From contig JAJYCL010000008.1 of assembly GCA_021778415.1 (NCBI GenBank), positions 1 through 64,000 on the forward strand: a stretch of 64,000 bases of DNA, in the 5' to 3' direction. The position numbers and the translations under genes were made by a program. A model generated the notes under the pieces. That model saw only the letters and a program-made list of their open reading frames with translations, did no database searches and was not told where the DNA came from. Within the stretch, counting starts at the first letter, position 1; each line of letters starts with the position of its first letter. Source of the DNA: a bacterium (GTDB lineage: Bacteria; Vulcanimicrobiota; Vulcanimicrobiia; Vulcanimicrobiales; Vulcanimicrobiaceae). Below are positions 46,196 to 64,000 of this stretch, piece after piece.

Positions 46196-48188
46196 CGAGA
46201 TCGCGAACGCGTTCCGGCGCGAATCGTGAAGCACTTGCGATACCACGCGCAGCCTGCCGATTCCACGCCGATTCGTCGCGATAGAGCCGTAATGTTTCGG
46301 CAACAAACGCCGCGGGATTGTCGGCGACGATAATGTCGTCTCCATGGACAAATTCCGTGCCCTCAACACCAATGCTCGTCGTCACCGCCGGAAGTCCGAG
46401 GCTGAGACTCTGCACGATTTTTCCTTTCACACCGGCACCGAAGCGAAGCGGCGCGAGAAAAACGCGTGCCGCATCAAAAAGCGGGGTGAGATCGCTCACA
46501 TACCCCGTAATGCGGACATGCGGAGATCGCAGTTGCATCACGGATTGCGGCGGCTCGTATCCTGCGATGATCACGTGAAAATCAGGATCGTCGCGCAAGA
46601 GTATCGGCAGGATGGTTTCGCAAAGGTAGACTGCGGCATCGACATTGGGCTGATGAGTGAAGTTCCCGACAAAAAGCGCTCCCTGTCGTTCGGAAAAGGC
46701 AGGCGGAGAACTTTGCCGAGTCGATTCAATAACGGGAACGATGATTGACTCGATGCCAAAACTTGCTAATACATCGCGCTCAGCACCGCTACAGACAATC
46801 GTACGGTCCGCATCGCGAGCACAGGCGAGCTCGCGCTCTCTGGTCTTTTCCCACGCAAGCTCTCGACCGGAAATTTCTGCTTCGCCGCGTTCGCGCAGAA
46901 AATGTAAATCAACCGTATCGTACAGCCGCACACTTATAGCTGGACCGGCAAGTGCATGAGCATATCGCTCGTAGAGCTCCGGACGCGAGATCCAGGCGAT
47001 ATCAATCGAAAACGGAATTTCCGCAAACGTCGCCAGCCCGCCGCTAGGATGTTCCAGCACATCGATCCCATCGGCCCGCAGCTGGCTGGCAGATGGTTCA
47101 TACGCGATTCCGTCGTCGGGCAAAAAGAGAACGTCGTAGCGGAGCGTTCGCAGTATCCGTGCAATTGCGGCGATGCGGCGCGATCCCGCATCGCGATCTA
47201 AAAACGGAACATGCGAATCCACCATGAGAAGACGTTTTTTGCCCTGATGTCGTCGGAGCGCAAGCCCTTCTTGGAGTTCCCGAGGCGCGGCATCCAACGA
47301 GAGCTCGGCCATTTTCTGCACACATTTCTCGCGGTCCGATTCGGATTTGAGAGAAGTTACGCTTCCGTCAAATGCTATCGCAGTAGGTACGGAGAGAATT
47401 CGATGTCCCGCTCGGCGGAGCGTTGAAGCCAGCATCAGCGAGGCATAGGTTGGCGTGGTAAACGCCGGGTCAAATCCGCCAACGCGTGTGAAATCCTCAG
47501 TGCGAACGAGCATGAAGGCGGGATTTACATAATCGGTTTCGCGAGTGTAGAGAAACTCGTGGCAAAAGCGGCTCCGGCCAAGACCAACGTCTCCGGCACG
47601 GCCGTCACTCCACACAATGCCGCCAGCATGCGCTATTTTGCGATCCCTCGTTTGTAACTGCCCACCAACGATGGCAACCATCGGGTCGGATGCATACGCT
47701 GCCAGCAACGCATCGAGCCACCCGATTAGCGGAACAATTGCCGACCCCACAAAAACGATCGCCGTTCCATTGGCCTCGCTGGCTCCGGCGTTACCCCGTT
47801 CGGCATAAGAGCCCGCTTGCTCCACAATCGTGATTCCTGAGCACTGCCCGATGAAATCACGGACGGTCGGCTCATTCGGATCGACAACGACGATGATTTC
47901 GCATGCCTCGATACCGGGCTCACGTGCAATAGCGTGGAGCGTGTTCACCGTTCCGGTTTTGTTGGCAGCGACAAGGACGATGGAGATTTCCGGGTGGGAT
48001 AGCGCGAAAAAACCGACGGGCAGCGAAGGAACGTCGCGAGTGATCTGATTTCGCCAACGCTGCTCCTCCTGTAACGCGCGTTGCCACGCCAAAAGCTCGC
48101 GCCGTGCTTTGAGAAAACCACGGGCAACAACAGCAGAAAGCCCGTGAGTCCGAAGCATCTCGAGCATCTTGCTCAACATCGTGCGCAT
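46167..48188 (-). CDS. Two-domain glycosyltransferase: degenerate GT2 plus GT4/GT1-like
   Basis: From ATG 48188 the product has 673 residues: a helical N-terminus, a GT2-like domain (about 65-300) and a GT-B domain (about 320-670) with DSHVPFLDRDAGSRR and a PLRFGAGVKGKI-like nucleotide-sugar loop. In the GT2 half the usual DDAS, NND and ED residues are replaced (VVDPN, FVGSAI, TYASL), so only the C-terminal domain is likely active. Starts at 48212 or upstream to 48281 are possible. It is convergent with the GT2 gene, and its partner protein is the intact fusion at 51876. Confidence 0.8.
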   Translation of the reverse strand: MRTMLSKMLEMLRTHGLSAVVARGFLKARRELLAWQRALQEEQRWRNQITRDVPSLPVGFFALSHPEISIVLVAANKTGTVNTLHAIAREPGIEACEIIVVVDPNEPTVRDFIGQCSGITIVEQAGSYAERGNAGASEANGTAIVFVGSAIVPLIGWLDALLAAYASDPMVAIVGGQLQTRDRKIAHAGGIVWSDGRAGDVGLGRSRFCHEFLYTRETDYVNPAFMLVRTEDFTRVGGFDPAFTTPTYASLMLASTLRRAGHRILSVPTAIAFDGSVTSLKSESDREKCVQKMAELSLDAAPRELQEGLALRRHQGKKRLLMVDSHVPFLDRDAGSRRIAAIARILRTLRYDVLFLPDDGIAYEPSASQLRADGIDVLEHPSGGLATFAEIPFSIDIAWISRPELYERYAHALAGPAISVRLYDTVDLHFLRERGEAEISGRELAWEKTRERELACARDADRTIVCSGAERDVLASFGIESIIVPVIESTRQSSPPAFSERQGALFVGNFTHQPNVDAAVYLCETILPILLRDDPDFHVIIAGYEPPQSVMQLRSPHVRITGYVSDLTPLFDAARVFLAPLRFGAGVKGKIVQSLSLGLPAVTTSIGVEGTEFVHGDDIIVADNPAAFVAETLRLYRDESAWNRQAARGIASASRFAPERVRDLVTRAVESDI

Positions 48189-48236
48189 AGGTACCTGGAG
48201 GCTTCGGCGCATAACAGAAGAACCCTGAACGGCGGT

Positions 48237-49040
48237 TTGGCTCAAGCATCTCTTCCCCGCCATCACGAGGCTCTCGTCCAACGACTCTATCGGTTTCGTT
48301 GGCTTATTTACGAATTGGTGCTTCGAGATCTGAAGCTCCGCTATCGTGGTTCGGCACTCGGCTTTATGTGGACGCTCCTCAACCCGTTACTTTTTATGGG
48401 CGTCTACACGCTCGTCTTCGGTGTTTATCTCAAAGTAGGCATTGCCGATTTCCCACTCTATCTGCTCAGCGGATTGCTTCCCTGGAACTGGTTCGCCAAT
48501 GCGTTGCAAACGGGAACGAGCGCGATTGTCGACGGTCGAATGTACGTGGGGAAGACCGTTTTCCCGACAGAGGCCCTACTCGTAGTCCCCGTAGCCTCAA
48601 ATCTGATAAATTTTCTCCTTTCGCTACCGGTGTTTGTGGTGCTGTCCATCGCCCTTCACGGGCATCTTGGCATCGCACTTCTTGCATTACCGCTCGTCAT
48701 TGTTTTGCAGAGCGTCGTCGTCTTTTCTGTTGTTACACTGTTTGCAACATTTAATGTACTCTATCGCGATATGCAGCAGCTTGTATCCTATTTTGTGATG
48801 CTGAGTTTTTATCTCACACCAATTTTTTATGCCACAAAATCGATTCCGGAGGCAATTCGGCCATTTGCGGAAATCAACCCAATGGTATCGCTGGTAAGGT
48901 GTTATCAACACATCCTTTTTGCGAATACGTTTCCTGCATGGGGCGATCTCGCGTATCTTGCTGTCACCGGCCTTGTCCTCTACGGCATCGCACAAATGGC
49001 CTATAATCATTACCACGATTCGTTTGGCGAATATTTATGA
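48237..49040 (+). CDS. Polysaccharide ABC transporter permease (Wzm-like)
   Basis: From TTG 48237 there are 267 residues with six transmembrane helices and the ABC-2 permease segment LIYELVLRDLKLRYRGSALG, followed by the TLLNPLLFMG motif of O-antigen exporters. It forms the membrane channel with the Wzt-like ATPase. The frame is open upstream to 48081, but that part overlaps the divergent gene and is not coding. The start is uncertain because no strong Shine-Dalgarno was found. The ATGA overlap with the next gene supports co-translation. Confidence 0.85.
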   Translation: MAQASLPRHHEALVQRLYRFRWLIYELVLRDLKLRYRGSALGFMWTLLNPLLFMGVYTLVFGVYLKVGIADFPLYLLSGLLPWNWFANALQTGTSAIVDGRMYVGKTVFPTEALLVVPVASNLINFLLSLPVFVVLSIALHGHLGIALLALPLVIVLQSVVVFSVVTLFATFNVLYRDMQQLVSYFVMLSFYLTPIFYATKSIPEAIRPFAEINPMVSLVRCYQHILFANTFPAWGDLAYLAVTGLVLYGIAQMAYNHYHDSFGEYL

Positions 49041-49807
49041 GCAATGCTATTAGCGTAACGAATGTTAGCAAAGCATTCCGCTATATCGCTCATGCTCGCT
49101 CTTTGACCCTCAAGGATGCAATTGTTCGACGTCTTTTTCTCCCGGACGACCAAAAGAAACAGAGCGTCCAAGCTCTCAGCGATATCACCTTTACCGTCGA
49201 ACACGGAAAAATGCTTGGCATCATCGGGCGAAACGGATCGGGTAAAACGACGCTTCTCCGGCTACTCGCCGGCGTTTTCCAGCCCGATTCCGGAAGTATC
49301 ATGCTTGATGGCGCGCTGGCGCCTTTGCTTGCCCTTGGTGCCGGATTTCATCCGGATCTGACGGGGCGAGAAAATGCGCGCATGGAGCTTCTGGTATTAG
49401 GGTTTCCGCGCAGCGCAACCGAGGGGAAGATGGATGCGATCATTGCCTTCTCGGGAATCGGCGATTTTATCGATGCCCCGGTGCGAACCTATTCTTCGGG
49501 AATGCTCATGCGTTTGGCATTTTCGGTGGCCGTTTGCGTCGATCCGGATATTCTTCTGCTCGATGAAGTCCTCGCTGTTGGAGATGATCTCTTCGCCCAG
49601 AAGTGCCTGATGTGCATTGAGGATTTTAAAGACCGCGGGAAAACGATTGTGTTAGTTTCACATAACACAGGAATCATCGAACGCTGGTGCGATCGTGTCC
49701 TCTGGCTTGATAAAGGCCAGACCAAAATGTTCGGCGAGCCTGCAGAGGTTGTGCAAGCCTACGCCCAAAGTGACCTTAGCGTCGGATTCGCTGAAAGAAG
49801 CGCTTAA
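49037..49807 (+). CDS. Polysaccharide ABC transporter ATPase (Wzt-like, short form)
   Basis: The 256-residue ATPase has Walker A GRNGSGKTT, the signature YSSGM, Walker B LLLDEVLAVGD and a His switch in SHNTG, so it looks active. It powers export of lipid-linked polysaccharide with the Wzm-like permease. It lacks the C-terminal carbohydrate-binding domain of terminally modified O-antigen systems, so export probably does not need a modified end for recognition. The 3' end overlaps the convergent methyltransferase by 32 bases. Confidence 0.9.
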   Translation: MSNAISVTNVSKAFRYIAHARSLTLKDAIVRRLFLPDDQKKQSVQALSDITFTVEHGKMLGIIGRNGSGKTTLLRLLAGVFQPDSGSIMLDGALAPLLALGAGFHPDLTGRENARMELLVLGFPRSATEGKMDAIIAFSGIGDFIDAPVRTYSSGMLMRLAFSVAVCVDPDILLLDEVLAVGDDLFAQKCLMCIEDFKDRGKTIVLVSHNTGIIERWCDRVLWLDKGQTKMFGEPAEVVQAYAQSDLSVGFAERSA

Positions 49808-51827
49808 GCCACCAGAATTTCCCTGACTGCACAAGATCGATCAGAGTCGCGATTTGCACCGACTCCGACCGAGCCCGCGAGGCCATCGCCTCCATTTGTT
49901 CAAGAAGCCGATTTTCGAGATCCGCGACGCTTCCATTGAGCGTTGCGAGGCGATCACGATCACGCGCGTGATCGGTGCGCTCGTTCGTGAGCTGCTGGGA
50001 TAGCTCTGCTATTGCTCGCTCTTTTGTGGTAATTGCAGCTTCGCTCTGTGCGATCTGCGTCTCAAGTGCAAAAATCCTCGTCCGATTTTGTGCGATTTCA
50101 GATTCGTGGGCGGTCAGCGACGTTGAGAGCGCGAGCGAAACTTCTTTGGCCTCTTCTAGTGCGGCCTGTAGCAGCGTCGCCTTCGAGCGATGTGCGACAA
50201 GTGCGGTCTCAGCAGCATTCCATTCTCCGTAGAGATTTTCGATGGTTCGCTGATACTCGTCGCCTTCGGCGCGGAGCGTTTCGATTTCCGCCTGCAAGGC
50301 ACTCGCATCGCTCGCCTGGGAACGCAAGACATCCTTCTCCGATTGAGCAGTCAGGAGGAGGGCGCGAACGCGATCCAGATCCTGTTCTGCGCTTGCAAGA
50401 GCGCGAGAAAATTCGGCTATTTGCGTATCGCGGGCAAGCACTTCGGATTGTAACGTGCGGCGCGATTCTTGCAATGATGCCGTCTCGCTATCCTGAAAAG
50501 CAAGCAGTTCCTTACTTTCCGCGAGGGCTTGAGAAAATTCAGCGATTTGCGTATCGCGGGCAAGCACTTCGGATTGTAGCGTGCGGCGCGATTCCTGCAA
50601 CGATGCCATCTCGCTATCTTGAACAGCAAGCAGTTCCTTACTTTTGGCGAGTTCGCTCTGCAAAGCGTCAAGCAACGTCGCATCAATTTTCGTCGTAGGT
50701 ACGGCGGCTTGTAGTTCCAGATATTTTTGCTCGAATTCCGCTGCCCGAGCGGTCTGCATGACGAGTCGCTCTTGTGCTCGAACGAGTTCTATTTCAAATC
50801 GGTGAGCGGCCTTTACGGCAGCATTGGCGCTCGACTGAAGGTTTTCGGTATCGTGAATCCGATGTCGTAAAAATTCGATTTCACGCGCTTCCGCTTCCAG
50901 CGTTCTATAGGCTTCTTGTGAGCGCAGCATTTCCGCATTGGCCGTTGCCAAGAATTCACGCGTTTTGGCAAGTTCTTCGTTGGTTACGGCGAGCTGAGCG
51001 GATAAAGCTTTAACGGTCTCTTCTTCGCGCTTAGCCCGCGTACGGATAGTGGCAAGCTCGGTATTGACTTCAAGGAAGCGTTTCGACAATGTGCGGAAAC
51101 GAATTTCGTTACTTAGTGGATAGGCGCGCAAAATGAATTGCAGCGTTTCACACTCCGGATCGCGACGTATTGCGGCGATGGCCTCGGCGGTAAAATCTTG
51201 TTCGCGAACGCTTGGAACGAGATCACTTTCACCAAAAAGCGGCACGTTCGTGCGCCCGATATCTTCGAGCCGATAACCGGCCGCAAGAAAGAGCTCCTCT
51301 GCTGATTTTCTGGTGAAAAATCGCATGTGCGTATCATCGAGAATCCCGAACTCTTGATAATCGAAGCTTCCATTTAGCAGAGCAAGCCGCACCGCACCGT
51401 GCGCGATGTTTGGCAACGAGATTACTGCATAACCGCCTTCGCGGATTAGTGCGCGTGCATCGTCCAGCAAGCGAAGAGGATTACGCAGATGCTCCAAGAT
51501 ATCGGCAAAGACAATAACATCGAACGTGTCATTTCCAACGAGATCGGTGACTGACGCTTCATCAAGATCGGCCACGATAACGCGCGAACAATATTTTCTG
51601 GCATCCTCAGCAGCCTTGGGATTGATATCGATGCCGACCGTATCGCATTGCCGGCTTTGCAGCACTTGGCCGAGGTAGCCGCCGGCGCAGCCAATATCGA
51701 GAACGCGTTTGCGTTCGCCGATCGCGCTAAGTAAGATACCTAGGCTCGTATCGGACTCGGGAGCATTGCTCACAAAATCGTGTTGTTGTGGGTAATCTTT
51801 CCAGCGGTCGATCGAATCGATACTCAT
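49776..51827 (-). CDS. SAM methyltransferase with long C-terminal coiled coil
   Basis: ATG 51827 with GGAGG upstream gives 683 residues. The class I methyltransferase domain (about 20-200) has VLDIGCAGG (SAM loop), DIN at the next strand and ADILEHLRNPL. Residues about 230-650 form a long coiled coil, rich in Glu, Leu and Ala, including a duplicated 42-residue unit. The C-terminus is a short basic aromatic tail (KFWWLKRFFQRIRR) that may touch membrane. It likely methylates a glycan terminus, with the coiled coil acting as ruler or scaffold, as in WbdD-type proteins; that role is inference. Confidence 0.85.
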   Translation of the reverse strand: MSIDSIDRWKDYPQQHDFVSNAPESDTSLGILLSAIGERKRVLDIGCAGGYLGQVLQSRQCDTVGIDINPKAAEDARKYCSRVIVADLDEASVTDLVGNDTFDVIVFADILEHLRNPLRLLDDARALIREGGYAVISLPNIAHGAVRLALLNGSFDYQEFGILDDTHMRFFTRKSAEELFLAAGYRLEDIGRTNVPLFGESDLVPSVREQDFTAEAIAAIRRDPECETLQFILRAYPLSNEIRFRTLSKRFLEVNTELATIRTRAKREEETVKALSAQLAVTNEELAKTREFLATANAEMLRSQEAYRTLEAEAREIEFLRHRIHDTENLQSSANAAVKAAHRFEIELVRAQERLVMQTARAAEFEQKYLELQAAVPTTKIDATLLDALQSELAKSKELLAVQDSEMASLQESRRTLQSEVLARDTQIAEFSQALAESKELLAFQDSETASLQESRRTLQSEVLARDTQIAEFSRALASAEQDLDRVRALLLTAQSEKDVLRSQASDASALQAEIETLRAEGDEYQRTIENLYGEWNAAETALVAHRSKATLLQAALEEAKEVSLALSTSLTAHESEIAQNRTRIFALETQIAQSEAAITTKERAIAELSQQLTNERTDHARDRDRLATLNGSVADLENRLLEQMEAMASRARSESVQIATLIDLVQSGKFWWLKRFFQRIRR
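50405..50656. repeat. 126-bp direct repeat in the coiled-coil coding region
   Basis: Two adjacent, nearly identical copies with a period of 126 bases encode a 42-residue coiled-coil unit (ESKELLA...QSEVLARDTQIAEFS). The copies differ by about a dozen bases. The period is an exact number of codons, so the frame is kept. It is a recent internal duplication that lengthened the rod. Confidence 0.9.
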
Positions 51828-51875
51828 GGGGCCTCCGGGGGAGCTGCAACCTGGGAAAGCGCTCGATAAAGAAGG

Positions 51876-54155
51876 ATGCTTCGGCTCTCTTTCAAAGCAT
51901 GTTCCATCTTCCCCCTGCATGTAAAGTGGGCAATTTTCTTGGATTCTGGCCGTATCGATGCCGCGACGAAGCAATTACAGGACGAACAACGTCGTCTGGC
52001 GCGGCTGCGTAGCGATTATGAGACCATTACCCGTAGCCGCTTCCACGCGCTTCGGATGTTTTGGTTTTCCCTCAAGGGCGTATTCGGCTTAGGCAAGGAT
52101 GATCGATTCGCGGTTTGGTCGCCCGGAGTGACCCCCAGTTTCGGATCGAGGAATGGCCCATCGCATGCGCCCACCCGCACCCCTCAGGAACGGCATCTCT
52201 TCCATTCGTGGGCCGATCACGCCACGTTATCGGCCGATCCACCGACGGTCTCGGTGGTTATTCCCGTCTATAACCATTGCGATGTCACGGTTCGTTGCTT
52301 GCAGTCGCTCAGCGATATGTGGCCCGCCACCTTAGCGATCCAGGTGATCGTTGTCGACGATGCCTCGACCGATCAGACTCCCTCGATTTTCACCGAACTT
52401 ACCGGCGTCGATTATGTGCGAAATGCTCAGAACCAGGGATTCGTACGCTCGTGCAATCGAGGTGCTGCCCTGGCTCGCGGCAAGTATATCTGCTTTCTCA
52501 ACAACGATACAGAAGTTCGCGAGGCGTGGCTCGACCATCTCGTTACCCTCGCCGAATCCGATCCGCTGATCGGCGCGGTCGGCTCAAAACTTATTTACCC
52601 TGACGGAACCTTGCAAGAGGCTGGCGGAATCATCTTCCGCGATGCATCGGGCTGGAACTACGGCCGCACGGCAGATCCGAACGATCCGCGGTACAACTAT
52701 CCGCGCGATGTCGATTATTGTTCGGGCGCCGCATTGATGGTGCGGCGCGATCTCTTTTTGGAGATCGGTGGATTTTGCGAACTGTTTGCCCCGGCATACT
52801 ATGAGGATGTCGATCTTTGCTTTTCCATTCGATCTCTCGGATATCGCGTTGTCTACCAACCACTCTCGGAAGTGGTTCATTACGAGGGTCTCAGCTCGGG
52901 AACCGATATCGCAAGCGGCTCGAAACGTTTCCAGGAAATTAATCGCCCGAAATTCCACGAAAAGTGGTTTCGCGTCCTCGAAGGTCATTACGCACCGCAT
53001 CCTTCATCCGTTCCCGGTGCGGCTCGCCGCCTCAAAAACGGGCCAACGATCCTGATCGTCGATTCCTACGTTCCACTCTACGATCGCGATGCGGGCTCCC
53101 TGCGTTTAATGCAAATCATCCGCCTCTTATGCGAGGCCAATTTCCAAGTTATTTTTCTGCCGGATAACTATGCTCCAATGCAGCCGTATACCGCGGAACT
53201 CCATCAGCTTGGCGTCGAAGTTTTGCACCACGTCGAACAAGGACGTTCACAAATCCAGTCGCTCGAAGAAATCTTGCCATTTCTCGATTTCGCGTGGATT
53301 TGCCGGCCCGAGCTCTTCCATAAATACGAATCGATGATTCGCCGCAATGGAGCAACAAAAGTTCTTTACGATACGATCGATCTCCATTTTGTGCGCAAAC
53401 GTCGCGAATACGAACTCTTCGGAGGCAATGCCGAAGATTGGCAGGCGAGCGAACGCGAAGAACTCTCCGCTGCGCGGAAAGCCGATGCAACGATCGTCGT
53501 CACTGAGGACGAACGTCGAGTTCTGAACCAACTCGGCATCGATCCCGTCCACGTGATTCCAACGCTTCACGATGCGGTGGTTATTAGTAACCGACGCTCA
53601 TGTGGCGAACGCAGCGGCCTCCTTTTCATCGGTGGGTACAACCATACGCCGAATGTCGATGCGGCGAAATGGCTCTGCTCGGAAATTATGCCGTTGGTCT
53701 GGCAAGAGGAGCCAACGATGAGCCTCACGCTCCTTGGAAGCAATCCGCCCGAAAGCATCCTAGCATTACAATCAAACCTCGTTCGAGTCCCGGGCTACGT
53801 GCCCGACGTTGGAAGCTACTTTGAAACTGCGAAATTGTTTGTCGCACCCATTCGCTTTGGAGCCGGAATTAAGGGCAAAGTCGGTCATGCGCTCTCTTAC
53901 GGACTGCCTGTCGTCCTCACCAGCATCGCGGCCGAAGGCTTTGGATTTACCGACAACCTCGATTGCCTCGTGGCCGATGACGCGCCGAGTTTTGCGGCTG
54001 CGATCATCCAAGCCTATCGCGATGAAGCGCTTTGGAATACACTTTCCGCCGGCTCAATGCGCATTCTCGCTCCATTTACTGCAGACGCCATCCAACCGCG
54101 ATTGATCGGCATGCTTTCGCAGATCGCCGAGATGTCGGCACCCGCCCGCGTCTAA
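51876..54155 (+). CDS. Two-domain glycosyltransferase: intact GT2 plus GT4-like
   Basis: The 759-residue protein has an N-terminal coiled-coil and amphipathic stretch, a GT2 domain (about 120-385) with VVDDASTDQTP, CFLNNDTEV and YYEDVDLCF catalytic-type motifs, and a GT-B domain (about 390-750) with SYVPLYDRDAGSLR and RFGAGIKGKV. Both domains appear intact. It should add two sugars or one sugar by either domain in glycan assembly. The start is uncertain; ATG 51876 is used and a TTG at 51939 is possible. It diverges from the coiled-coil methyltransferase. Confidence 0.85.
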   Translation: MLRLSFKACSIFPLHVKWAIFLDSGRIDAATKQLQDEQRRLARLRSDYETITRSRFHALRMFWFSLKGVFGLGKDDRFAVWSPGVTPSFGSRNGPSHAPTRTPQERHLFHSWADHATLSADPPTVSVVIPVYNHCDVTVRCLQSLSDMWPATLAIQVIVVDDASTDQTPSIFTELTGVDYVRNAQNQGFVRSCNRGAALARGKYICFLNNDTEVREAWLDHLVTLAESDPLIGAVGSKLIYPDGTLQEAGGIIFRDASGWNYGRTADPNDPRYNYPRDVDYCSGAALMVRRDLFLEIGGFCELFAPAYYEDVDLCFSIRSLGYRVVYQPLSEVVHYEGLSSGTDIASGSKRFQEINRPKFHEKWFRVLEGHYAPHPSSVPGAARRLKNGPTILIVDSYVPLYDRDAGSLRLMQIIRLLCEANFQVIFLPDNYAPMQPYTAELHQLGVEVLHHVEQGRSQIQSLEEILPFLDFAWICRPELFHKYESMIRRNGATKVLYDTIDLHFVRKRREYELFGGNAEDWQASEREELSAARKADATIVVTEDERRVLNQLGIDPVHVIPTLHDAVVISNRRSCGERSGLLFIGGYNHTPNVDAAKWLCSEIMPLVWQEEPTMSLTLLGSNPPESILALQSNLVRVPGYVPDVGSYFETAKLFVAPIRFGAGIKGKVGHALSYGLPVVLTSIAAEGFGFTDNLDCLVADDAPSFAAAIIQAYRDEALWNTLSAGSMRILAPFTADAIQPRLIGMLSQIAEMSAPARV

Positions 54156-54913
54156 CCGATTTTCCGCGCGGTCATAGGGCGACTCCAAGGATATTTAAAG
54201 TGGATGCCGCTCTCGATAACATCGTAATCCATCATTTTTATATCGCAAAATCCAGCTTCACGTAAATGCCTACGAATTGCATCGAGCCCAAGGACTCGCA
54301 TTTCTAAAACGGCTGCGCCTCCGCCGTGAAAAACGAGATCATTAAATCGCTGCCTACGACCATCCACGGTTATGTTGATTAAAGAGCGCGTACCATCCGG
54401 ATGCGTTTCTATTTCCCAGGTATGAAGCTCTGGAAAATATTCCACGGTTTCCTTGAACGAATGCGGAACGCTAAATACCAGAAGACCTCCTTTATTTAAA
54501 AGAGCGCCTAAGCCATTAAATGCCTTTTGAACCGGCGGGACGACATGTTCAAGAACTTCGCTACAAATAACTAGGTCCGCCGAGCCAACCCAATTGGGCC
54601 TAGGCTCTAAAATATCGAGCATTGGTTTGCCCGCAAACGTGGAATCGAATTGCGTATTTATGTAGGAAATCTTTGGCCGTAAATGGTGCGTAAACTCCGG
54701 CCAATCGCTAATTCCATATGCCAAAATATCTAATCGTTCGGGCCAATGAGCCACCGGATCACAACGACCGAATAACTCACACCCAACTAAATAGGCCAGA
54801 GCTCGTATTCTTACGTTCGAACCACATTCGGAACAAACGCCCACCTCACGATCCAAATCTTCGAATGCGTATCCTCGAACCAAAGCTCCGCAAATGTTAC
54901 ACGTGAACGTCAC
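54152..54913 (-). CDS. SAM-dependent methyltransferase with N-terminal zinc ribbon
   Basis: From GTG 54913 the protein has 253 residues. The N-terminus has CNICG and CSECGS, a four-Cys zinc-ribbon, and the rest a class I methyltransferase core with a VICSEVLEHV segment. The open frame continues upstream to 55021 but overlaps the WcbI-like gene. The GTG has AAGGGG about 11 bases upstream. It overlaps the upstream gene by 17 bases and is at the end of the acyl-module operon. It likely methylates a glycan or lipid-linked intermediate. Confidence 0.75.
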   Translation of the reverse strand: MTFTCNICGALVRGYAFEDLDREVGVCSECGSNVRIRALAYLVGCELFGRCDPVAHWPERLDILAYGISDWPEFTHHLRPKISYINTQFDSTFAGKPMLDILEPRPNWVGSADLVICSEVLEHVVPPVQKAFNGLGALLNKGGLLVFSVPHSFKETVEYFPELHTWEIETHPDGTRSLINITVDGRRQRFNDLVFHGGGAAVLEMRVLGLDAIRRHLREAGFCDIKMMDYDVIESGIHFKYPWSRPMTARKIG

Positions 54914-55784
54914 TTGGTGACTTACCCCTTGCAAGGATCGTTCGCTCGATGAGTTCTTGGAAGTAGGCTTCGTAGCTATAATCCGTCCCATCAAAGAGAT
55001 AAAATCGCTCGTTCGGATCATACCAGGATAGCGTAAAATATTCGGCGACCATCGGATGAATGGGGACGCTTACAACCCCTAGTGGGCCGCGAGAGGAAAG
55101 AACAAAATTCTTATCCACCGTCTCACCAATATCGACATCCATCATTCCTGGTATCTGCACGGAAGCAACAGCGATGATGCGTCGTACCAACTCTTTTAGC
55201 ATGGATTGTGACGGGTGGTTAATCGTCCACAACGGTCGCTCAATCGCGTACACGTTGAACAAATGCTCCCCTATCGCTACGTCGCATTTCGCATCGCGCG
55301 CAAAAATACGAGCCTTTTCAATTTTCAAAAGGCGGTCGAGATCGATCTTATATTTATCCCACTGTGTCAGATAATAGTCGAGGATTTCAGCCGCCGATTT
55401 CCCCGTTTCAATTTGAGAAAGTACGATTCGATCGCTATAAGGAAAGCGCCCGAATGGGAACGACGGCTCAACCGGATTGTAGGGATTCGTTGCATTGAAT
55501 GGCCAAAGCGCGTTGAAATCCACCGATGGGAAGCGCACAGTCACGCACGACTGCGGCAAAGCATCTCGCTGCGGGAAAAGCACCGGATCGTGCTGTTCGC
55601 AGAGCAAATCGCATACCGCAACATCGTCGCGCGAAATCGTCATGCCCTCGAATCGAACGTTCTCGTAACTTGGAACGTAGTGAACGACGTAATTCTCCGC
55701 AATGGCTTGGTTGAGCCCAAAAATTACCGCTATGGCTTCGGCCTGGCAATTTCCATAGATGATAATTGTGCGCTTCTTACTCAC
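54897..55784 (-). CDS. WcbI-like polysaccharide-modification protein (intact GNCQ)
   Basis: The 295-residue protein begins with IIIYGNCQAEA, where GNCQ (residues 11-14) is the family's CoA/acetyl-coenzyme A-associated motif, and contains an FPSVDFNALWPFNATNPYN segment. WcbI-family proteins are putative acyl or acetyl transferases acting on capsular polysaccharide. It overlaps the second WcbI-like gene by four bases. Together with ACP and AMP ligase it suggests transfer of an activated acyl group, which is inference. Confidence 0.8.
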   Translation of the reverse strand: MSKKRTIIIYGNCQAEAIAVIFGLNQAIAENYVVHYVPSYENVRFEGMTISRDDVAVCDLLCEQHDPVLFPQRDALPQSCVTVRFPSVDFNALWPFNATNPYNPVEPSFPFGRFPYSDRIVLSQIETGKSAAEILDYYLTQWDKYKIDLDRLLKIEKARIFARDAKCDVAIGEHLFNVYAIERPLWTINHPSQSMLKELVRRIIAVASVQIPGMMDVDIGETVDKNFVLSSRGPLGVVSVPIHPMVAEYFTLSWYDPNERFYLFDGTDYSYEAYFQELIERTILARGKSPSDVHV

Positions 55785-56608
55785 GTGGCCACCATGGAAG
55801 TGAGGCTATCCCGAACCATCTGCTCGAAATATTCACGATACGTCAGCATTTCTCCCATATAGGAAAATTTCGCATCGTTCTTATACCAACGCAAATCAAA
55901 CGTTCGCGCAACGTGAGGGTGAATCGGGACGGTAGCCTGCCCAAAAAAATCTTGCTCGCCGAACCGATGCATCAGTTCCACTAGCACTTTTCGCGAAATA
56001 GGTGGCTTCTCTCCGTACATGCGTTTGAGAATACCAAAGACAAGTTCGCTAAAAACCTCGTTTGTCGGCGCAGTCGAATTCCAAAAAAGTCGGGTGCGAG
56101 ACACATGCTCACGAATGTAGGGAGCCATCGAAAATTGCGTTCGTGCATCGAGCATCGATAAACGCTCACAATCCTCTTGCTCGACGGCTCGCAGATCCGG
56201 CCACGCGTCGTTCCATTCAACGGAGCAGTAATAATCGACAATTTTTTCGGGAGGAACACCGCGCTCCAGGCAACTGACGATAAAGCTATCGCCTTTCGGA
56301 AATCGACCATGTGGATACTGCGGAGGATCCGCTCTATTAAATGGATTGATACACGTAAACGGCCATAAATGCCGTATCTCAAGCGACGGAAACCCGATTC
56401 CTCTGCAATCGATCGGAAGCCGATCGAGGATGGGCTGCGCATCAAACGGTTCTTGATGGAGGAACAGCGTGCAGTCGCCGATTTTCGGGGTCGTCGCCAT
56501 CGATGCGAGGTGGACGATCCGATACTTTCCGCTGATTCCGACGATCCGAGCCAATACCGCAGCAACGCCCTCAGCTAAAGCGTCACCATATATGATGATA
56601 TCCTTCAC
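55781..56608 (-). CDS. WcbI-like protein lacking GNCQ
   Basis: The 275-residue protein aligns throughout with its downstream neighbour (shared FPSLEIRHLWPF, INPFN, GRFPKGDSFIV, VDYYC), but the N-terminal motif reads GDAL (8-11) instead of GNCQ. It is a diverged paralogue, possibly with another substrate or a structural role. It overlaps the ACP gene and the WcbI-like gene by four bases each, so it is translated with them. Confidence 0.75.
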   Translation of the reverse strand: MKDIIIYGDALAEGVAAVLARIVGISGKYRIVHLASMATTPKIGDCTLFLHQEPFDAQPILDRLPIDCRGIGFPSLEIRHLWPFTCINPFNRADPPQYPHGRFPKGDSFIVSCLERGVPPEKIVDYYCSVEWNDAWPDLRAVEQEDCERLSMLDARTQFSMAPYIREHVSRTRLFWNSTAPTNEVFSELVFGILKRMYGEKPPISRKVLVELMHRFGEQDFFGQATVPIHPHVARTFDLRWYKNDAKFSYMGEMLTYREYFEQMVRDSLTSMVAT

Positions 56609-56871
56609 AAGGAGCCCGACTGCTTAGCCGAGGTAACCGACTCAACCAGGTCCGCTAGTTCTCCGACATTCGCAAGTTCGGAGACCGCCTCAAACGGCAA
56701 TTCAATTCCGAATGCATCCTCGATATTCATGATCAAAATGGCATGCGAAAGAGAATCCCAGCCATCCACCGTAGCACTTGTCGTTTCGCGCGTAACCAAG
56801 GTTTCGGGGATAAGGTGAAACGTTGCGGCAACGGTTGAGCGAATGCGTAAGAAGATTTCCGTTTCGTTCAT
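56605..56871 (-). CDS. Acyl carrier protein
   Basis: The 88-residue acidic helical protein has WDSLSH with the phosphopantetheine Ser40 in the DSL motif. It is stand-alone, encoded between the AMP ligase and the WcbI-like gene with four-base overlaps. It should carry an acyl group loaded by the ligase. It is not in a fatty-acid or polyketide gene set, as no ketosynthase is nearby. Confidence 0.9.
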   Translation of the reverse strand: MNETEIFLRIRSTVAATFHLIPETLVTRETTSATVDGWDSLSHAILIMNIEDAFGIELPFEAVSELANVGELADLVESVTSAKQSGSL

Positions 56872-58511
56872 GGTCCGCTGAACTTTCTCGGCTCAAACTG
56901 TCCTCGTAGGTACAGTTCCTTATTCTTGGCCCGGCTAAGCTTTCCGCTCGTGGTTTTCACGAGCATCCCGCGTTCAACGGGGATAAAAGCGTGGAGCGCG
57001 AGGCCCGTCCGCTCGAGGACGATGCGTTTAACCTGGTGGCCGACATCCGCGGCTTCATCCCGACATTCTGCCAAAATGACCATCACCGTCGCGTCACTTC
57101 GTTCTTCATCGATACCGATGGCGACGGATCGCCCCGGTATGATCTCTGGAATATCCGCCATAAGGGCTTCCATTTCATGGGCATAATAATTTCGGCCGTT
57201 GATGATAAGCATATCATCGAGTCGCCCGGTAACATAAAGCTGCCCCTCGCTGAGGTACCCCATATCTCCCGTGGCGTACCATCCATCAACGAGTCGCTCA
57301 CGAGATTTTTCCGGTAGGCGATAATAGCCGCCAAATAAGAACGGGCTGGCTATGTAGATCTCCCCAACCTCGCCGTCGGGCAGTTGAACGTGCGTGTTCG
57401 AATCGAATATGCGGAGGTCCACACCGGGAACTGCGAATCCGCACGAGAGATGGCGCTGCTCGATGGTTCCGCTCGCCGTTTCGGCCACTCGGACCGTAGA
57501 TGGGATGCCAATCGGCGTTTGGGTGACGGCAAAGACGTTTTCCGCCATCGCGTAGCTAACGGCAAGCTTCTCTGCCGAAACCCCACTATCGCGAAAGCGG
57601 TCGACGAATCGATCGAAGGTTGTGATCTTGCACGGTTCCGAACAATTGATATAGGCCCGCATCGAAGCAAGATCCCAGGTAGCGCTGCCTCGGACTGCAT
57701 TGACCATGTGGGAGAAGGCAAAGTTCGGAAGCCAGCAAAAAGTAGTTCGAAATTTCTCGATCGCATCGAAAAGAATGCGAGGGCGTAAAACCCATTCGAA
57801 TGGATCGAGTGCGACGAGATGCGTCCCCGATAATAACGATCCCATAAAGCAAGCGATAAATCCCATATCGTGATAAAGCGGCAGCCAAGAGACGATCGAA
57901 TCGGCATCTGTAAAGCCGATCGTCTGCGCATATGCAGCATGATGATCGAGCAGCATGCGATGCGTAAGCATCACGCCCTTTTTTAACCCGGTTGTGCCGG
58001 AACTGTGTTGTAAACATGCGATATCGTCGAGGCGAGCATCGAAGCCGGCAAAATCGGTATCATCGCCCGCAAATCGATCCAAGATTGAATCTTCTGCAAT
58101 GCATATCGCTATCGAAGAGGCAGCGGCAGATTCCCGGGCCGAGCCCGCGTTTTCCGGGTACGTAACGATGAGCCGAGGCTCGATGCGCGCGAAGAGCGCT
58201 GCGTGATCGGCCCAGTACAGCTCGGAACGTTGCTTCGGCGATGGGAAAGGCATAAACGATGGGATCGCCCCGGCGAGTATTGCTCCAAGGTAGCTATAGA
58301 ACTGGTGCGGCGAGTGCCGCAAGATGACGAGAACAATGTCTCCTGGGCGAATGCCAACGGAACGGTAGTAATGGGCATACGCGCAACTCCGCCTATAGAG
58401 CTCGGAGTACGATATGGAACGAGCATTTCCCGACGCTATGGAAGTGCAAAAACGTTCGTCGGCTTTGCAATCCGACAACTCCTGAAGAACCTGAGCGATA
58501 TTTCGCGCCAC
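56868..58511 (-). CDS. AMP-dependent acyl-ACP/acyl-CoA ligase (fatty acyl-AMP ligase-like)
   Basis: The 547-residue adenylating enzyme has the A3 loop SSGTTGLKKG (170-179), YATGDMG, RLDDMLIINGRNYY and the C-terminal catalytic Lys in SGKLSR. The domain order resembles fatty acyl-AMP ligases, which load acyl-AMP on ACP. It overlaps the ACP start by four bases, so the ACP is the natural acceptor. The acid is unknown. It lies next to a GT2 gene and is the start of the acyl module. Confidence 0.9.
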   Translation of the reverse strand: MARNIAQVLQELSDCKADERFCTSIASGNARSISYSELYRRSCAYAHYYRSVGIRPGDIVLVILRHSPHQFYSYLGAILAGAIPSFMPFPSPKQRSELYWADHAALFARIEPRLIVTYPENAGSARESAAASSIAICIAEDSILDRFAGDDTDFAGFDARLDDIACLQHSSGTTGLKKGVMLTHRMLLDHHAAYAQTIGFTDADSIVSWLPLYHDMGFIACFMGSLLSGTHLVALDPFEWVLRPRILFDAIEKFRTTFCWLPNFAFSHMVNAVRGSATWDLASMRAYINCSEPCKITTFDRFVDRFRDSGVSAEKLAVSYAMAENVFAVTQTPIGIPSTVRVAETASGTIEQRHLSCGFAVPGVDLRIFDSNTHVQLPDGEVGEIYIASPFLFGGYYRLPEKSRERLVDGWYATGDMGYLSEGQLYVTGRLDDMLIINGRNYYAHEMEALMADIPEIIPGRSVAIGIDEERSDATVMVILAECRDEAADVGHQVKRIVLERTGLALHAFIPVERGMLVKTTSGKLSRAKNKELYLRGQFEPRKFSGP

Positions 58512-58514
58512 CGG

Positions 58515-59558
58515 TTATTTTCGTTCCCCGCTTTTTTCGAGTAGCCGTAGCTCCTGGCTAGCTTTTGGCGAAATTTGGACGTCGTACATGAGTGCATTTA
58601 AGAGCAACTGAAAGCCCATCATAAACGGCAGAACGGCAAGCATGACCGTGCCGATCGGTTTCGGAAGGTGAGTATAGAATCCGTTAATCCACTGCGCAAG
58701 GCCGAAAATAAACCCGAATAAAACGAGGAGTAGGCCGACGAAGAAATAGAGCGTCCCGATATTAACGTCAAACACTAAATACTGGATGGCGAAGCGTCGT
58801 AGCGTCAATCGAGCGAGTTTTGTTGGAAATTCAAAGGCGACTCGGGTGATCGAAAGCGAACTCGGTACGTCCGTATATATCGTTGGCATCTCAAGTTCGA
58901 GAATTGGCAAGCGCTTAAGGCCCAGCTCACTCAATACGGAGATTTCAAAGAAGTACGAATCTGCAAATGATTGCCACGGAATAAGCGCAAGTACACGGGC
59001 CCTAAACGCGATATATCCGTTGGTAGGATCGAGTAAATTCCAGTAACCCGACGCTGCCTTTGCGAACAGCGAGAGAACGGCATTCCCGAAAAAACGCGTT
59101 TTCGGCATAAGACTCGTCACTCTCGCATCGAAGAATCGACTCCCCTTGATAAATGCAAGGCTTGCGTCGCGCTCAAAAGCAGCTCTCATCACAGGGATGA
59201 AAGCCGGGTTCATTTGGCCGTCGGCATCTATTTTTACGATAATCTCGGGCGTCAGCGCTAGGGCCGACGCTATTCCCGACTTCATTGCAGCGCCGACGCC
59301 ACGGTTGGCAGCGTGCGTAATGAGCACAACTCTCGAATCGTTCGAATACGCATCAGCGACGAGCTTCCCGCTCCCCTGCGGGCAGGCATCATCGACAACG
59401 ATAACTGCATCACACACCAAAAGCGCGGAACGAATGACTTCCAGAATTGAGCTTGCGGCGCGGAACGTCGGAATGATGGCACAGACAGTAACTGAGCGAC
59501 TCGTCACGAGTTGCTCTTTGGCCAAGGGCGATACGAGAGATGAGGTATCCAAGGCCAC
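58515..59558 (-). CDS. GT2 polyprenyl-phosphate glycosyltransferase-like protein
   Basis: The 347-residue protein has a GT2 domain with DDACPQGS and KIDADGQMNP (metal Asp) and two C-terminal transmembrane helices (about 275-330), like dolichyl- or undecaprenyl-phosphate sugar transferases. It probably makes a polyprenyl-phosphate sugar for use outside the membrane. The start is a GTG with weak Shine-Dalgarno. It lies four bases upstream of the AMP ligase and is probably the first gene of the acyl-module operon. Confidence 0.85.
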   Translation of the reverse strand: MALDTSSLVSPLAKEQLVTSRSVTVCAIIPTFRAASSILEVIRSALLVCDAVIVVDDACPQGSGKLVADAYSNDSRVVLITHAANRGVGAAMKSGIASALALTPEIIVKIDADGQMNPAFIPVMRAAFERDASLAFIKGSRFFDARVTSLMPKTRFFGNAVLSLFAKAASGYWNLLDPTNGYIAFRARVLALIPWQSFADSYFFEISVLSELGLKRLPILELEMPTIYTDVPSSLSITRVAFEFPTKLARLTLRRFAIQYLVFDVNIGTLYFFVGLLLVLFGFIFGLAQWINGFYTHLPKPIGTVMLAVLPFMMGFQLLLNALMYDVQISPKASQELRLLEKSGERK

Positions 59559-59692: not shown

Positions 59693-61633
59693 TTGTACGC
59701 CGCAACACAAGTTCTCGTTGGTCTCCTGGTAGCGCATATCGCGTGGCTGTTCTTCTTTCTCACGGGTCTGCTCGTCGAGCCGGCTGGAACCGCGCGCCCC
59801 GATAATGCAGGGCGAGCGTTGCTCCGCATCGTCATCGCTACCGCCGTTGGCTTTGCCATCTGTGGATTCGAGGGCTTCGCCCTTGGACTCGTTGGTTTGC
59901 TCACCGTACCGGGAATCCTCATAATGGTCTGCGTGAATTTGGGGGCATTCCACGTCATTCGCCGAGAGAACCCGTTAAGCAAAGCCTTCTGGATGGAGCG
60001 GCACCGAGATTTCCGTGCCGCACTGAGTATTCCATCCATCGTTTTATATGATGTGATGCTAATACTCTCCACACATGCGGCGATGCCGGATGTCAGCTCG
60101 GATGGCGTTCGCATCCACCTAGCCTACGCGTACGAATGGTTCCGGGAAGGACATATTTACGCCGACTATCGCTTTCGATTTCCATATTATGCATTTAATT
60201 ACGAGATTCTCTATGCCTGGATGTTTGTGGCACGGGTTGGCCGATACATTCCGTTTCTAAATTGGCTTGCGGGCACCGTTGCCTGCCTGGGCATCTATGG
60301 AATCATCGCGAGCATAAACGAACAGACTCGACGGGTTGCCAATAAATTGTGGTTCGTCGCGGAGAACATCGTCTACATTGCACTTCCATTAAGCGTTGTC
60401 GCTAGTGCCGTGTTTCTACGCTGGACTGATACGGCCATGGAAGACACCGCCACGGGCATGTTTTTCCTCGCCGTTATCGCTGCCGTTGTGCTTTCCGTGT
60501 TGTCTGCAAATCGGCGACATCTCCCAGCAGCAGTATTTTGCCTGGCATTTTTAGCCGGCATGAAACCTTCATTTGCTGTTTTCGTACCAGTTGCGTGCGC
60601 CTTTCTGTTTCTTGTACTCAGAAAGAACATGCCTGCTGGAAAACTACTTGCGATGATACTGCTCCTTTGCGCACTCTCTTCTACGTGGTACATAAAAAAC
60701 TGGATTCAGGACGGCGACCCCGTCCCTCCCGTGTTCAATCTCATGTTCCGAGGCCACGATCCGAACTTCACGAAAGCGCAGTGGCAAGCTATTGAGAACG
60801 ACTTGCATACCAAGCGTACCTTTTCATCGCTTGCCGCCTACCCATGGCGAGTCTTCACGAATCCGCTTTCGCTTGACTTTCGGGAGTATGGGGTAACGGC
60901 GGTAATATTTTCGCTATACGCCATTCTTGGAACGTGGATCTATTTTTTGGTTAAGACACGACGGAGCCAAAAGGAAAGGGCAATAACATGCCTTCTCATG
61001 TGGGCACTGTTGGGCGTCGCCTATATTTTTGCTTCGTCGACGCTTGTTCGATATTCGCTTCTCTTCTATCCGACCATGGCGGCCGCCGGCGGCAGCGTTC
61101 TTCTCTATTTTGCTCAAGAGATACCCTACGGAATATTTATCGCTCCGATTCTTGCAATTACCGCAATTTTTCCGTCACCAAATTCAAGTGATTTCTATTC
61201 GAACTTCCAATTCATGGGTTACACGGCACTTTCCGACTATATGCCAAGTGACGATGCATTTCTTGATCGAAATCTTGCCGCATACGCAGAAGCCCGCGGA
61301 ATTCTTGATTCACGAGCGCTAAAGCAGCCACAATATAATACCGTCTTACTAGTTCAGGCGGAGCTAAACTATTACGTAGAGCTGCACGGCGCCCATGCAT
61401 TCGGAGACTGGTTTGGACCCGGGAGTTACCAGATTTTAGCTGCCGCAATCGATTCCGGCAACGCAATGGGCTATATGAATGCGAATAAAATTGGAGCGAT
61501 TGTCATCGATACTCAAAGTGGCGCACTCGCTCCCGATGAAGTACAGTTTTTGAGGCGGCAAATTCTTAAGGGAGGCTTTCGTGAGGCCTCAACATCAGAC
61601 GCCCATTTCGAAGCCTTTGAACGTAAAATCTAA
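59693..61633 (+). CDS. Polytopic membrane protein, probably GT-C-type glycosyltransferase
   Basis: The 646-residue protein has about 12 hydrophobic helices and a C-terminal extracytoplasmic domain of ~130 residues. GAGGG lies 6 bases before the TTG start. The long loop after helix 2 has DGVRIHLAYAYEWF, compatible with the Asp-containing first loop of GT-C enzymes (ArnT/PMT-like) that use polyprenyl-phosphate sugars. The link with the GT2 gene across the divergent promoter supports this, but no family was confirmed. Confidence 0.65.
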   Translation: MYAATQVLVGLLVAHIAWLFFFLTGLLVEPAGTARPDNAGRALLRIVIATAVGFAICGFEGFALGLVGLLTVPGILIMVCVNLGAFHVIRRENPLSKAFWMERHRDFRAALSIPSIVLYDVMLILSTHAAMPDVSSDGVRIHLAYAYEWFREGHIYADYRFRFPYYAFNYEILYAWMFVARVGRYIPFLNWLAGTVACLGIYGIIASINEQTRRVANKLWFVAENIVYIALPLSVVASAVFLRWTDTAMEDTATGMFFLAVIAAVVLSVLSANRRHLPAAVFCLAFLAGMKPSFAVFVPVACAFLFLVLRKNMPAGKLLAMILLLCALSSTWYIKNWIQDGDPVPPVFNLMFRGHDPNFTKAQWQAIENDLHTKRTFSSLAAYPWRVFTNPLSLDFREYGVTAVIFSLYAILGTWIYFLVKTRRSQKERAITCLLMWALLGVAYIFASSTLVRYSLLFYPTMAAAGGSVLLYFAQEIPYGIFIAPILAITAIFPSPNSSDFYSNFQFMGYTALSDYMPSDDAFLDRNLAAYAEARGILDSRALKQPQYNTVLLVQAELNYYVELHGAHAFGDWFGPGSYQILAAAIDSGNAMGYMNANKIGAIVIDTQSGALAPDEVQFLRRQILKGGFREASTSDAHFEAFERKI

Positions 61634-62258: not shown

Positions 62259-62651
62259 ATGCCTCAGACACGCGTAGAGGATTATGAACCCAGATTTTTT
62301 GGGCGCTATCTCCTCGGACATATGCCGAGCGAACGCGCCGTAAATATGTATCTTCGAGCCTCACGTTCGTTCGACACTCTCGACGATGCTTCTCGGCGAC
62401 TGATGAGCTTGGCATATCGCTATCCATGGTTGCTTGGAGCGATTGACAACGGGCTTGCTCTAAAAGGCAAGTCATCATCATTACGATTTCGCATTTGGGC
62501 TATGTCCGCAATTCTGGAGACGTGCCCAGAATATTTTTCCTATTTTTCACCAGTTACAGGAATACGAGCCGCTCTTAAACTTATTTTTGCAATCCTACGA
62601 GCACCATTTCGAGCGCTTATCGGGATTATCGTCGTGTCAGTTAACGAATGA
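62259..62651 (+). CDS. Protein of unknown function coupled to the GMC oxidoreductase
   Basis: The 130-residue protein has basic and aromatic helices and a C-terminal hydrophobic stretch (about 103-128) that may be a membrane anchor. Its stop overlaps the ATG of the GMC gene by four bases, which indicates coupling. Some GMC-type dehydrogenases have a small partner subunit, but no signature of such a subunit was found here. Family unknown. Confidence 0.6.
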   Translation: MPQTRVEDYEPRFFGRYLLGHMPSERAVNMYLRASRSFDTLDDASRRLMSLAYRYPWLLGAIDNGLALKGKSSSLRFRIWAMSAILETCPEYFSYFSPVTGIRAALKLIFAILRAPFRALIGIIVVSVNE

Positions 62652-64000
62652 AACGATTCGACTGCATTGTCGTAGGATCAGGTGCTACGGGCTCGATTGC
62701 CGCTCAGGCGCTGCTCGCTCAAGGGTTCAGCGTTCTTATGCTCGACGCCGGTCAACGTGATCTTGACTTTCAATCCTTAATACCTGAACGTTCGTTCATG
62801 GATTTGCGCCAAAGTGATCCTGAACAGTACAAGTACTTTCTCGGCCCGAATCTCGAAACTCTCGGGCCTCAGCCCGGCGAAGGTTACGCACACCTTACAC
62901 CTCCGAGGCGTGCACTGTTTAAAGAGGTCCAGCGTTTTCTCCGGAATCGTTCTGAAACGTTTTCGGCAGTTGAGAGTCTCGCATTTGGAGGTCTCGGAAG
63001 TGGTTGGGGTCTCGGATGCAACGTGTTCTCCGATTCGGAGCTGCAGCAAGCATCGCTTCCCATTTCGGAAATGCGAGATGCCTATCAAGCTATCGCTGAT
63101 CTTATCGGAATTTCGGGCAGTGCGGACGATGCATCGGCATATACCCATGGCGGCCTGTCAGGGGTTCAACCGTCCGTTCCGCTCAATCCAACGGCAGCCG
63201 CAATTCTTCAAAGCTATAAACGCCAACGTTCGCGATTTCAAAAGCAAGGGTTCCAGCTAGGGCGACCGGCTCTCGCTCTTCTTACCGAAGCGAAGGATGG
63301 CCGTTCGCCGACGACACTGCGGGACATGGATTTCTACTCGGATGCCGAGCGGGCTGCTTGGCGCCCATGGATTCTTGTCGATCAGTTGAAGCGATCTCCA
63401 GGATTTTCCTACATAGGAAATTCACTTGTCACCCGGTTCACCGAGCGAGACGGAGTGATCCAAGTACATGCTCTGAATATGCAGACTCTTGAGAATGACT
63501 CGTATACTTGCGCCAGGCTCATTCTGGCGGTTGGCGCCATAGGATCGGCAAGAATTGTACTTCGATCGCAAGATGATCTAACGACGCAATTACCCCTTCT
63601 TTGCAATCCGTACACCTATATGCCGTGTATCGTACCCGCTCGAATCGGGAAGCCCGTGCCAGATCGCGATATGGGACTTGCCCAGCTCGTCCTTTTTCAT
63701 GATCGTGATAACAGCCACACCGATATCGCCCAGGCATCGCTCTATACCTATCGATCACTGCTACTCTTTCGCCTCATGAGCGAAATGCCACTCGGCATAC
63801 GAGATGCACGCATCATACTTCAGGCCCTCACACCTGCGCTTGTCATCGCGGGAATCCACCATCCCCAACAACAGTCGACCCTGACGTACCTTGTTCGAGA
63901 GCTCGACGCCACAGCGCCTACAGGCGACAGAATTGCAATTTCATCAGCGGAGTCAGAGAAAGACTACAATAATCGAGAGCACCGAGAACGTTGTTTTATA
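62648..64000 (+). CDS. GMC-family oxidoreductase, N-terminal part, cut by the window edge
   Basis: The frame is open for 451 codons from ATG 62648 to the right edge without a stop. Near the N-terminus, VVGSGATGSIAAQ is the FAD-binding GxGxxG site, followed by LMLDAG. A GGLGSGWG segment around residue 117 and LAVGAIGSARIVL around 300 match glucose-methanol-choline oxidoreductases. It probably oxidises a sugar or alcohol group. The C-terminal catalytic His region lies outside the window. It is the last gene of the visible glycan locus. Confidence 0.85.
   Translation, partial: MKRFDCIVVGSGATGSIAAQALLAQGFSVLMLDAGQRDLDFQSLIPERSFMDLRQSDPEQYKYFLGPNLETLGPQPGEGYAHLTPPRRALFKEVQRFLRNRSETFSAVESLAFGGLGSGWGLGCNVFSDSELQQASLPISEMRDAYQAIADLIGISGSADDASAYTHGGLSGVQPSVPLNPTAAAILQSYKRQRSRFQKQGFQLGRPALALLTEAKDGRSPTTLRDMDFYSDAERAAWRPWILVDQLKRSPGFSYIGNSLVTRFTERDGVIQVHALNMQTLENDSYTCARLILAVGAIGSARIVLRSQDDLTTQLPLLCNPYTYMPCIVPARIGKPVPDRDMGLAQLVLFHDRDNSHTDIAQASLYTYRSLLLFRLMSEMPLGIRDARIILQALTPALVIAGIHHPQQQSTLTYLVRELDATAPTGDRIAISSAESEKDYNNREHRERCFI

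Follow-up and report, generated by a model that had tools for sequence, protein, structure and literature searches.

What do an adenylating ligase, a stand-alone acyl carrier protein (ACP) and two WcbI-like proteins do together in a locus for surface-glycan export? The genes in question lie in a 64,000-nucleotide stretch of DNA (the window; positions 1 to 64,000 of contig JAJYCL010000008.1, assembly GCA_021778415.1) from a little-known soil bacterium of the phylum Vulcanimicrobiota, with Candidatus Eremiobacterota/WPS-2 (= Vulcanimicrobiota) as its named close relatives. A sequence-only reading of the window had described a compact glycan-decoration system that might draw on an acyl-ACP made on site, an interpretation that our analysis partly supports; all of its genes were recovered where it had placed them, on the minus strand and with Pfam support. 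We consider it fairly probable that they encode a carrier-protein-dependent glycan acylation module, in which a fatty acyl-AMP ligase (FAAL) would load the ACP, a live WcbI would acylate the glycan and a dead WcbI would serve as its partner. This proposal builds on the genes, their conservation, the loss of the active site in one WcbI, the repeated origin of such dead copies, and gene fusions.

A WcbI copy with and one without the active-site residues

The two proteins, WcbIa and, downstream of it, WcbIb, were compared with the solved WcbI of Burkholderia pseudomallei (PDB 4BQN), the reference for residue numbering (Cys14, Arg167, His201, Arg294). In that structure, Cys14 and His201 hold the thiol of coenzyme A (CoA) and the acetyl carbonyl (PMC4104973). 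WcbIb Cys13 and His190 align to this pair and are invariant in a cross-phylum alignment, and a conserved arginine aligns to Arg167. In WcbIa, YGDAL replaces YGNCQ, NSTAPT replaces TxNHPT and a leucine occupies the Arg167 position, so that all three residues are lost. The two WcbI proteins are not two transferases, as had been assumed, because the first of them is missing the Cys/His pair at the thioester. Nor is WcbIa a decayed gene, since both proteins model confidently as the WcbI fold: AlphaFold2 models reach a pLDDT (predicted local distance difference test) of 86.6 for WcbIa and 89.6 for WcbIb, each with a template-modelling (TM) score of 0.70 to 4BQN (E 9.5e-11 and 2.3e-13, respectively). 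These features point to WcbIa as a catalytically dead partner of WcbIb.

Dead/live pairs are present at eight loci, and it is the upstream copy that is dead in the host, in G006, G032, G057, G058 and G061, and at two Acetobacteraceae loci of G148. Cys and His are replaced in 6/6 aligned upstream copies as well as in the two Acetobacteraceae copies; the downstream copy of each pair always keeps the Cys and a His. A single origin of the dead copies was rejected (approximately unbiased test, p-AU 1e-6), giving at least two origins. One relative (G061) encodes the dead and the live WcbI in a single 599-aa frame, a fusion that suggests contact between WcbIa and WcbIb. Another fusion (G024, L035:7209-8867) joins a Wzt-type ABC ATPase, the homologue of the one in the window, to a C-terminal WcbI in one 553-aa frame containing both Pfam domains, and suggests that acylation is linked to export.

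Retention of Cys-less copies would also suit binding, and no transferase activity was measured for WcbI (PMC4104973), so that WcbI might instead act on acyl-ACP as a thioesterase or in a binding or regulatory role. This strikes us as very unlikely, as Cys and His are invariant across phyla, which suits catalysis, a hydrolase would reverse the work of the ligase, and the link to glycan loci would be hard to account for.

Carrier protein, loaders and WcbI clades

The best NCBIfam match of the ligase is PRK09192, a fatty acyl-AMP ligase (273 bits; cut-off 600), and its nearest solved relatives are mostly FAAL/acyl-ligase domains; by these best matches, it is nearer to FAALs than to other adenylate-forming enzymes. 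It carries the motif SWLPLYHDMGF and a C-terminal lysine motif, TTSGK, and its segment after YAMAE, between the core motifs, is longer than that of E. coli FadD and shorter than that of the Legionella FAAL 3kxw. The adenylating ligase of the sequence-only reading is of the FAAL kind, a class reported to load holo-ACP and to reject CoA (PMC8460268). GWDSL of the ACP is invariant in 13 homologues.

Relatives were selected by family hits, and locus counts were partly assigned by hand. Among 148 relatives, PF18588 was found in 18 same-family genomes, with a single weak match outside the family but within the phylum; the WcbI genome scan used a six-sequence alignment and reached 16 loci. In 15 same-family genomes, the window counted in, ligase, ACP and WcbI are found no more than 5 kb apart, and this conserved neighbourhood excludes a chance grouping. 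A separate ligase-only search matched strongly in 14 of the 18 WcbI genomes and in only 3 others, dividing the relatives into 14 with both genes, 4 with WcbI only, 3 with the ligase only and 127 with neither (Fisher p = 1.3e-13, a value that ignores relatedness). Among WcbI genomes without a ligase hit, the ligase of G061 is cut by a contig end, and the WcbIs of G084 and G087 are unmatched by the ACP-type profile. Gene order varies, being WcbI-ligase-ACP in G075 and with ligase-ACP converging on WcbI in G024. Ligase-ACP homologues also occur without WcbI (L141 in G036, L142 in G037, L143 in G128). The pair in G036 is surrounded by dTDP-sugar genes and a tetratricopeptide repeat (TPR) protein.

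The link between ACP and WcbI is visible within the host genome itself, which has three PP-binding (carrier-protein) genes in total, two of them directly upstream of WcbI genes; one of the three resembles a fatty-acid ACP. The host's third WcbI (L140 9670-10545) is overlapped by four bases by an ACP (L140 9425-9673), and this pair (G000:C23:45924-47044) adjoins a flagellin gene and a TPR protein, with no ligase there; it possibly serves flagellin glycan decoration. Two further ligase-less WcbIs, G032:C28 and G032:C33, each have an adjoining ACP.

Ligase-ACP-WcbI neighbourhoods, whose absence from other genomes would have counted against the sequence-only reading, were found in Pseudomonadota as well as in Vulcanimicrobiota, which favours that reading. 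PF18588 is present in 15/398 Pseudomonadota genomes, with a FAAL-like ligase, ACP and WcbI at loci L104, L105 and L107 and ACP and WcbI at L108 and L110. An Acetobacteraceae locus (L111) holds a WcbI pair with FkbH and an ACP, WcbI lying upstream. FkbH is an alternative ACP loader whose acyl group is phosphoglycerate-derived, and is the candidate loader at this locus; the ligase downstream was rejected as a module-type ligase, being an ordinary acyl-CoA synthetase. On a plasmid of Niveispirillum cyanobacteriorum (NZ_CP025615.1; L151:6816-9858), HAD-IIIC/FkbH, ACP and WcbI are consecutive and independently annotated, with transposases on the flanks, so that the FkbH-ACP-WcbI arrangement is found in Alphaproteobacteria. 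A plasmid search with the long Pseudomonadota WcbI variant (L104) gave no match. With FkbH in the loader's place beside ACP-WcbI, the loader seems exchangeable and ACP-WcbI constant. The constant unit is ACP-WcbI rather than ligase-WcbI, and its link is tight, because adjacency persists without a ligase (host C23, G032:C28) or with FkbH instead.

Two trees separated ACP-type from canonical WcbIs by a 100/100 branch. By hand classification, an ACP lies within about 5 kb at 24/30 ACP-clade loci versus 2/16 canonical loci; the latter come from Actinomycetota and other groups, and 14 of the 16 are without a nearby ACP. B. pseudomallei WcbI is absent from both trees; scoring 98 bits with the canonical profile versus 52 bits with the Vulcanimicrobiota profile, it appears nearer the canonical side. 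A lone ACP-clade WcbI (G024:C1, L066:9559-10548) has YGRSQ for YGNCQ with the His kept, and has no ACP or ligase nearby.

WcbIb might instead use acyl-CoA, like the presumed canonical WcbI, with FAAL and ACP serving another step in the locus, for example an acyl chain consumed elsewhere. CoA was bound in the WcbI crystal (PMC4104973), WcbIb keeps residues at both the phosphate end and the thioester end, and the ligase-ACP pairs of G036, G037 and G128 stand without WcbI. We nevertheless judge this use of acyl-CoA unlikely, given that ACP and WcbI remain adjacent where the ligase is missing or replaced, as described above, and given the C terminus of WcbIb. The profile alignment follows 4BQN as far as about residue 286, the AlphaFold2 model is disordered past 289, and 4BQN extends by alignment about 24 residues past the WcbIb end, Arg294 among them. 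Arg294 contacts the CoA 3'-phosphate (PMC4104973), a group present in CoA and absent in ACP; a WcbIb without this C-terminal part would fit an ACP donor.

More broadly, and tentatively, the entire ACP-type clade may consist of glycan acyltransferases that depend on an ACP and can exchange its loader, FAAL serving for carboxylic acids and FkbH for glycerate-type groups. They would often act as live/dead pairs of at least two origins and could couple physically to an ABC exporter, which would tie acylation to export.

Operon and glycan-export setting

The operon runs from 59558 to 54152 on the minus strand, in the order glycosyltransferase family 2 (GT2) protein, acyl-AMP ligase, ACP, WcbIa, WcbIb and methyltransferase (Table 1), and each of its proteins exceeds its own Pfam cut-off. 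Four-nucleotide overlaps (ATGA/GTGA) join ligase and ACP, ACP and WcbIa, and WcbIa and WcbIb; the ligase starts at a 3-nt spacing from the GT2 end. Joining by such overlaps, as described in the sequence-only reading, holds for these three junctions and not for the methyltransferase. The listed ATG of that gene, at 55021, gives a 125-nt overlap with WcbIb; a GTG at 54913, just ahead of the homology to its relative, gives 17 nt and is probably the true start. The methyltransferase does follow WcbIb, and a homologue adjoins the module in G061 alone among the compared loci; it was dropped as a core member and is an accessory gene.

Table 1. Coordinates of the module genes and their neighbours in the window
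Feature	Position	Strand	Support
GT2 glycosyltransferase, operon head gene	58515..59558	-	PF00535 60 bits
Putative ACP-loading, FAAL-like acyl-AMP ligase (547 aa)	56868..58511	-	PF00501 201 bits
Stand-alone ACP (88 aa; GWDSLSH site, Ser40)	56605..56871	-	PF00550 27.1 bits, cut-off 20.8
WcbIa, WcbI-family, without Cys14/His201 equivalents	55781..56608	-	PF18588 47.2 bits, cut-off 29.2
WcbIb, WcbI-family, Cys13 and His190, proposed acyltransferase	54897..55784	-	PF18588 101.1 bits, cut-off 29.2
Methyltransferase, N-terminal CxxC...CxxC segment	54152..54913	-	PF13489
ABC-2 polysaccharide export permease, Wzm-like (context)	48081..49040	+	PF01061
ABC export ATPase, Wzt-like, without extra C-terminal domain (context)	49037..49807	+	PF00005
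Two-domain glycosyltransferase GT2+GT4 (context)	51876..54155	+	homologues in 11/14 module loci
646-aa protein with multiple membrane segments (context)	59693..61633	+	GT-C-like candidate, hydropathy only

The head gene, previously named a polyprenyl-phosphate sugar transferase, is a GT2 protein with C-terminal membrane segments, hydrophobic over residues 260-325, and close homologues (E about 1e-160) at seven other module loci. Its best curated-model matches, PpgS (44 bits; cut-off 370) and AglJ (41 bits; cut-off 325), lie so far under their cut-offs that the earlier name is a lead only; the protein is possibly a polyprenyl-phosphate sugar synthase.

Glycan export as the setting is supported by several glycosyltransferases and the ABC-2 permease and ATPase around the operon; glycosyltransferases and an ABC export ATPase also recur at homologous module loci. 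Longer Wzt homologues were considered as carrying an extra C-terminal domain, which was rejected: Pfam puts the surplus length at the N terminus, where it probably reflects an upstream start choice, and found no Wzt C-terminal domain. The 646-aa protein has no Pfam match. Also within the glycan locus, at 49776-51974 (minus strand), is a methyltransferase whose long C-terminal part is coiled-coil-like, and a flavin adenine dinucleotide-dependent oxidoreductase at 62648-64000 (plus strand) runs past the window end and has homologues in 6/14 compared loci.

The same setting bears on whether the operon could be a small secondary-metabolite or lipopeptide cluster merely neighbouring the glycan locus, as FAAL-ACP pairs stand at the start of numerous lipopeptide and polyketide pathways (PMC11837247). 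The operon and the neighbouring genes that were scanned contained neither a ketosynthase nor a condensation domain, in line with the sequence-only reading, and glycan genes accompany the module at homologous loci as well; we give this explanation hardly any credence.

Proposed mechanism and relation to known systems

In the proposed glycan acylation module, the FAAL-like ligase would activate a carboxylic (probably fatty) acid by adenylation and load it onto the phosphopantetheine of the adjacent ACP, a step strongly suggested by its family. The WcbIb cleft, corresponding to the CoA site of the solved WcbI, may then take the acyl-phosphopantetheine arm, with Cys13 and His190 at the thioester, and hand the acyl group on to an acceptor, either a glycan or a sugar linked to a lipid. 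Transfer is placed on the cytoplasmic side because neither WcbIa nor WcbIb has a hydrophobic membrane segment; the Wzm/Wzt-type exporter would then move the acylated glycan out. WcbIa could assist in one of several ways: it may present the acceptor, serve as a docking site for the ACP or keep WcbIb stable. Donor, acceptor and WcbI pairing we infer from genomic evidence.

Several points weigh against this mechanism. The acceptor is guessed from genomic context. The ligase stays under the curated cut-offs of all FAAL models, so 'FAAL-like' is the right label. A single WcbI is present at 9/15 conserved loci, so that a dead copy is not obligatory for the module, and some ACP-clade WcbIs (G001, G024:C1 and the second copy of G018) are without a close ACP. 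To our knowledge, including the open-access literature, PF18588 contains no enzyme of proven transferase activity. The ligand of the WcbI crystal is CoA, not ACP (PMC4104973).

WcbI of the B. pseudomallei capsule locus (PDB 4BQN/4BQO) resembles WcbIb in its PF18588 domain, fold (TM 0.70), conserved Cys14/His201 pair and glycan locus (PMC4104973). Vivoli et al. saw it bind CoA, but three assays detected no acetyltransferase activity, and they suggested that an unknown partner was missing (PMC4104973). Unlike that protein, studied as an acetyl-CoA enzyme, WcbIb belongs to another clade, is linked to ACP and FAAL, and has a PIHP motif, a shorter C terminus and a dead paralogue as putative partner. 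WcbI has been known since 2013 as a capsule protein of solved structure that binds CoA, has shown no activity and may lack a partner. The ACP, loader and dead paralogue that recur beside WcbI supply concrete candidates for donor and partner in the ACP-type clade; B. pseudomallei WcbI, for its part, stands nearer the canonical clade.

The module shares with stand-alone FAAL-ACP pairs a FAAL beside its cognate ACP; unlike here, the acyl-ACP of lipopeptide and polyketide pairs feeds polyketide synthases or nonribosomal peptide synthetases (PMC11837247). The word 'polysaccharide' is not mentioned in the text of that FAAL-ACP review (PMC11837247). FkbH-ACP (glyceryl-ACP) loading offers another parallel, with FkbH preceding ACP and WcbI in Niveispirillum and with WcbI lying upstream in an Acetobacteraceae genome; its chemistry differs, and FkbH is absent from this operon.

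The remaining parallels concern surface polymers. Dlt uses an amino-acid donor and a membrane O-acyltransferase. AlmEFG, which modifies Vibrio lipid A with glycine, applies to a surface glycan the ligase-carrier-transferase logic proposed for the module, and differs from it in transferase family and in its amino-acid donor. With Dlt D-alanylation of teichoic acids, the module has in common an adenylating ligase, a small carrier, a transferase and a surface polymer (Dlt with Alm in PMC3783018). Unlike in Dlt, the ligase here is FAAL-like and the WcbI proteins are soluble, and Pfam found no membrane-bound O-acyltransferase domain of the Dlt type among the operon proteins. If our proposal is true, carrier-protein glycan acylation, as in Dlt and Alm, would reach a new transferase family and FAAL enzymes.

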